A stretch of DNA of 40,510 nucleotides from Lachnospiraceae bacterium (GTDB taxonomy: Bacteria > Bacillota > Clostridia > Lachnospirales > Lachnospiraceae). The position numbers and the translations under genes are program-made. The stretch covers positions 1-40,510 of the forward strand of contig JAILRI010000046.1 in the NCBI GenBank assembly GCA_024698555.1, in the 5' to 3' direction. Of the stretch, positions 1,464 through 1,627 are shown one piece after another. A model generated the notes under the pieces. It did no database searches. It was not told where the DNA came from and saw only the letters and a program-made list of their open reading frames with translations. Position 1 is the first letter of the stretch. Every line of letters begins with the position of its first letter.

Positions 1464-1627
1464 CTAGTACATCGATTCTTAAATAACTGGACCGAATGCT
1501 TGACGGCTTTAGCGATAGCACACGCCTAAAAGCCTCGCCGTAGCCCGCTACGTCTGCGTTTTCAGACATGTACTCTCGGGCAAGCATTCGGCGCATTAGT
1601 CCAGTTATTTCGCGATCGATGTACTAG
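1464..1627. repeat. Palindromic intergenic repeat element, copy 1 (complete)
   Basis: Perfect 13-bp terminal inverted repeats ctagtacatcgat (1464-1476) / atcgatgtactag (1615-1627), plus nested inverted repeats aaataactgga/tccagttattt and ccgaatgcttg/caagcattcgg; near-identical second copy at 40370. Confidence 0.9.

Follow-up and report, generated by a model that had tools for sequence, protein, structure and literature searches.

Several families of short repeats described in bacteria are close to the element studied here. The RUP element of pneumococcus and its relatives, a MITE of IS630-Spn1, is 107 bp long and AT-rich, with no ORF, IS630-like ends, a TA-containing target and a predicted folded transcript (PMC3049150, PMC2229807). 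The Correia/NEMIS elements of Neisseria form classes of ~107 and 155 bp that differ by ~50 bp internally and have TA termini, and ERIC, an enterobacterial folded intergenic repeat of 127 bp, is reported to affect mRNA in an orientation-dependent manner (PMC2229807). REPINs are mobile hairpins with compensatory changes, made of REP doublets and associated with a Y1 transposase, RAYT (PMC3116915). Finally, the insertion sequences of the IS630 family (ISY100, IS630), which have a transposase gene and terminal repeats, insert at TA and duplicate it (PMC2170065); a CTAG preference of IS630 appears there through the title of a cited work (Tenzen and Ohtsubo 1991).

The present locus belongs to a 40,510-nucleotide stretch of a Lachnospiraceae genome, the whole of which is called the window hereafter. 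It contains an imperfect palindrome of 164 bp bounded by CTAG on both sides (Table 1). The ends of this palindrome are common with IS630 elements, and the family is therefore called an IS630-type MITE: very probably, it borrows an IS630 (Tc1/mariner-like) transposase, and its core perhaps acts as RNA.

Table 1. Features of the palindrome and its second copy in the window
Feature	Position	Strand	Remark
Whole element, 164 bp	1464-1627	minus (conserved folding strand)	copy searches, folding, covariance model
Left terminal inverted repeat	1464-1493	+	27/30 identity to left end of the intact IS630-family IS (L351)
Right terminal inverted repeat	1598-1627	-	matches L351 IS ends; scores 45 and 39, 0/2000 shuffles
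Left CTAG target	1464-1467		would be C, duplicated TA and first G of the element
Right CTAG target	1624-1627
Helix 3 (conserved), one arm	1495-1499		pairs with 1593-1597
Helix 3, other arm	1593-1597		within the bulge drawn in the earlier note
Internal-loop motif GCMGRAT	1586-1593	-	conserved on folding strand
3' motif RNCAAG (also written RRCAAG)	1499-1504	-	conserved on folding strand
Inner covarying helix, one arm	1518-1530		many G·U wobbles on minus strand
Inner covarying helix, other arm	1558-1572
Apical hairpin CGTAGCGGGCTACG	1539-1552	-	near-universal in superfamily
Second copy, cut by contig end	40370-40510	-

Anatomy, copies and relatives of the palindrome

The arms drawn in an earlier note, made from the sequence alone, all lie at the places claimed: perfect 13-bp ends (1464-1476/1615-1627), a 4x4 mismatch (tctt/cgcg) with the stem aaataactgga/tccagttattt, a one-sided bulge cgcattag (1592-1599) and the internal hairpin cgtag-cccg-ctacg that appears as the apical hairpin in Table 1. 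The second 11-bp stem of that drawing (ccgaatgcttg/caagcattcgg) is also present in the window but is not the pairing that is conserved. In 37 diverse relatives, 222 cells of this stem pair and 173 do not, versus 170 and 12 for the alternative pairing of AATGC from the bulge with GCATT (helix 3). The palindrome is far beyond chance on both strands, with RNA fold z values of -7.6 (plus) and -8.5 (minus) and 0/200 dinucleotide shuffles as good.

The note had seen the element recur at the right end of the window, and the second copy is there; the recurrence is not limited to these two copies, however. The left end alone has 49 matches in the own genome (G000) with up to 3 mismatches and 0 control hits, about 40 copies were matched among the 40 scored of 85 candidate places, and the 13-bp tip has 68 matches in the whole own assembly. 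The host genome contains about fifty copies, with at least 49 left ends, so the outcome that the note would have taken as refutation (only two copies, no relatives) did not materialise. Many copies reach a contig end, where about 141 bp of the element are present, and the window stops inside its second copy because the repeat breaks the assembly there.

DNA matches were obtained in 4 of the 60 other genomes of a first kinship sample. A covariance model of the kind proposed in the note, built from 49 copies, found relatives of this short, non-coding and dispersed element in 46 of 299 Lachnospiraceae genomes, about one per genus. A pattern scan returned 70 stretches, every one titled Lachnospiraceae or Eubacterium. 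Rumen or gut assemblies supplied most of them, and the isolate [Eubacterium] cellulosolvens LD2006, with copies L086 and L121, is among them. None of the viral contigs matched the exact window-family pattern; a divergent member is located at the record ends of MT837746 and MT838414, two phage records that may be bacterial scaffolds rather than phage. Length is nearly constant across relatives (mostly 158-167 bp), short internal-deletion forms retain both ends, and a ~215-bp form exists with an additional apical hairpin. This longer class was observed at L086 (6320-6535), L078 (2457-2671), L105 (2179-2393) and L287, and its ~50-nt apical extension has a GGTCTAC..CGGTC motif common to families that differ in their tips. 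A further palindromic family, with tip CTAGTGTACTGTCTGCATTATAT, was seen in G309 beside CTAGTACACCG copies (L276 from ~1165 onward, L285 ~800-990).

No Rfam family matches at gathering score, and a literature search, whose coverage leaves out many journals, returned no prior description. Within Rfam and the papers searched, the family was indeed previously unrecognised. The note's remark that it recognised no named family is only partly right, because the ends are those of the IS630 insertion-sequence family.

IS630-type ends and the CTAG target

The main evidence comes from a viral contig (L351) with an intact IS630-family element of 1,294 bp, whose left end is nearly that of the window element (Table 1) and whose right end matches it with 0/2000 shuffles as good. 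This IS splits an ORF at CTAG, and the ORF reads through once the flanks are rejoined with a single CTAG. At L344 and L305, the C-terminus of an IS630 transposase is found with the tip, L344 scoring 40 against the window left end (0/2000 shuffles), and in RUG13451 the IS630 transposase is intact (391 aa) and accompanied by a right end that matches. Terminal repeats are common to elements and IS within single genomes as well, as 0/2000 shuffles equalled the match between IS630 and element in either RUG13451 or G309. Transposase P0001 is assigned to IS630 by NF033545 (226.8 bits) and Pfam DDE_3, and the transposase fragments likewise. The conserved core is absent from the intact L351 IS. The note had suggested seeking a transposase with the same terminal repeats; the L351 IS has closely matching ones. 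In the host, no IS630 protein was found in the ~0.48 Mb read, and across the whole assembly the exact window tip was seen only in element copies or at contig ends.

The outer ~30 bp are IS630 terminal repeats. We propose that an IS630 transposase acting in trans would excise the element and insert it at the TA within CTAG. This TA would be duplicated, and each insertion would therefore add one CTAG. CTAG starts and finishes nearly all copies, including the near-identical sets of G223 and G309; a few have unequal ends (CCAG/CTGG, CTAG/CTAA). Neighbouring copies, tandem or nested, have one CTAG in common, and one G309 copy is inserted at the internal CTAG of another. The check for target duplication showed CTAG on either side of the element and a gain of one CTAG for each insertion; no MITE copy had an empty site at an orthologous locus. 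TA and CTAG duplication are inseparable at most loci because CTAG is palindromic; several G150 copies have a left CTAG and a right CTAA or CTAC, and we favour TA duplication as the one that would better fit such ends than a four-base duplication. Footprints CTAGTACTAG were also noted beside copies, in the left flank of L106 and immediately to the left of position 77109 in G309:C22, and look like what deletion of an element down to TA would leave.

The tips vary by lineage, and both sides change together. In G150, a separate set of elements has tips CTAGAGCGTGTYTGAAAAA, and the same tips (~18 bp) bound an 883-bp IS5-family element (NF033580) in that genome; the CTAGAGCGTG elements of G150 thus class as IS5-type MITEs by tips in common with a same-genome IS5. 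These IS5-tipped elements carry the same apical hairpin as the core family and, from this and a modest model score, probably belong to it. The 883-bp IS5 at L211 (4224-5106) and L227 (4251-5136) has split ORFs and tips as in >30 small palindromes of the genome, and at L306 (G150:C1:2918382-2920762) the IS5 is interrupted by an insertion whose transposase gene looks IS256-like by eye. ORF clustering beside the copies made only the IS5 of G150/G226 stand out among transposases, and an IS5 protein search of 14 genomes was positive in G226 only. IS5 with DUF4096 was rejected as general mobiliser: it is absent from nine CTAGTAC-tip genomes and fits only the G150 CTAGAGCGTG elements.

The folding core and the placement of copies

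The interior is a conserved core, one strand of which folds into a long imperfect hairpin. By RNAalifold, the minus strand reaches -65.1 kcal/mol and the plus strand -28.5, the minus strand folds better in 37/37 diverse members with both RNA and DNA energies, and slid controls of the pairing drop to 31-37% paired. In the 49 copies, 23 pairs show change on both sides versus 11.0 in shuffles, and the wobble cells point to the minus strand, with 192 G·U versus 15 C·A (185 versus 33 in the 39 rows of <85% identity). These statistics are limited by a structure derived partly from the same sequences and by related copies that are not independent, and their p-values serve as a guide only. The loop motifs GCMGRAT, CGAGWGTGC, AACGYAGGCGTAGCGGGCTACGYYGAGG and RRCAAG are conserved. 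Mutation as the source of the G·U excess was set aside by reasoning, since drift from C to T on the leading strand would, in the usual orientation, yield C·A instead of G·U. We infer from these alignments that the core pairing, G·U included, is under selection on one strand and that the core may act at the RNA level; since DNA energy parameters favour the folding strand too, single-stranded DNA may alternatively be the selected form. In line with proposals for folded MITEs such as ERIC, the core, once transcribed, could be a folded RNA whose effect is to lessen harm to neighbouring transcripts or to alter them.

The window element is flanked by two convergent genes, one of the DegV family at 500-1378 on the plus strand and one for a response regulator at 1639-2484 on the minus strand. 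A strong hairpin directly before the element (1411-1468) probably terminates transcription of the DegV-family gene. With ORFs called by a simple rule, 0/47 copies fall inside ORFs versus 46/66 control CTAG sites, at a median of 10 bp from a gene 3' end; in G150, 4/42 copies are inside a called ORF and the median is 97 bp.

Could the family consist in the main of a gene for a structured RNA, or of a mobile riboregulator, that hitched onto transposon ends and is kept for RNA function rather than transposition? Core motifs and apical hairpin that stay constant under changing tips, the G·U excess and the ~50-nt apical extension recurring under different tips would all agree with it. However, no promoter was found in the element, no Rfam family matches, the near-identical multi-copy expansions look selfish, and placement at gene ends can reflect selection against damage, which leaves this explanation unlikely. 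Since the core sits between varied IS630-type ends and, in one genome, IS5-type ends, it might also be a transferable module of structured RNA that persists by swapping transposon ends and parasitising unrelated transposases, a proposal that we regard as speculative and rather improbable. A transcription terminator or insulator, surviving beside gene 3' ends by ending transcription, is slightly less credible still: the short distance to gene ends and a plus-strand hit resembling a terminator (1539-1552) speak for it, but the T-run is not next to the stem, the scan expects 0.6 hits by chance and the upstream gene already has its own hairpin.

In 36/42 G150 copies (36:6 by replichore), the folding strand runs antisense to the replication-leading strand, as it does to the G-rich strand in 54/75 others (54:21), with no bias in the recently expanded copies of G223 and G309 (12:7 and 11:13). 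Such orientation, together with several genomes that have no autonomous partner of the same exact tip, would suit an element of the REPIN or PATE type that a Y1 transposase (IS200/605 or RAYT) moves, in single-stranded form, at the replication fork. This is nevertheless very improbable: the ends match DDE IS630 elements, exposure of the lagging template would present the poorer-folding strand, and a bias strong in G150 but missing in G223 and G309 led us to reject transposition at the fork. To us, the bias reflects selection on placement rather than the mechanism of transposition. Finally, mobilisation by the IS4-type transposase of G223 and the own genome deserves practically no credence, as IS4_4, although its gene occurs in the own genome and its C-terminus adjoins a tip-like sequence in G223, has different ends of its own (ACTCAAACTTCCCACA) and had merely inserted into an element. 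A full-length IS4-family transposase with ends ACTCAAACTTCCCACA was observed in the own genome at L316 (G000:C34:3111-4430).

We thus return to the IS630-type MITE. The note had offered a MITE/REP-like mobile palindrome or a structured RNA; the MITE is retained and the covariation on one strand is in line with the latter, but REP is unsupported and the ends match IS630.

Comparison with known systems

The present elements form a large, apparently undescribed mini-transposon family in a bacterial family of major importance in gut and rumen. They help explain the fragmented assemblies of such genomes. Because a single-strand fold is conserved while the ends change, they also offer a direct test of whether the inner structure of a MITE serves transposition, transcript protection or an RNA function.

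Compared by description only, RUP is similar in its short length, absence of ORF, IS630-like ends, TA-containing target and predicted folding, but the present family is ~165 bp long, occupies many genera and displays a constant core under changing tips with strand-specific covariation. The two size classes of Correia/NEMIS are echoed by the 165- and 215-bp forms, also by description only, with a different host and different ends. ERIC, compared in the same way, is comparable as a short folded intergenic repeat but has a 7-bp TIR and no IS630 partner named in PMC2229807. REPINs share the mobile hairpin with compensatory changes, but the present ends are those of DDE IS630 elements and not of a Y1 system. 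IS630-family insertion sequences (PMC2170065) agree in terminal repeats, CTAG preference and, probably, TA target; unlike the present family they have a transposase gene, and the core is missing from the intact IS examined. The new points are the strand-specific conserved core and the changing ends around it.
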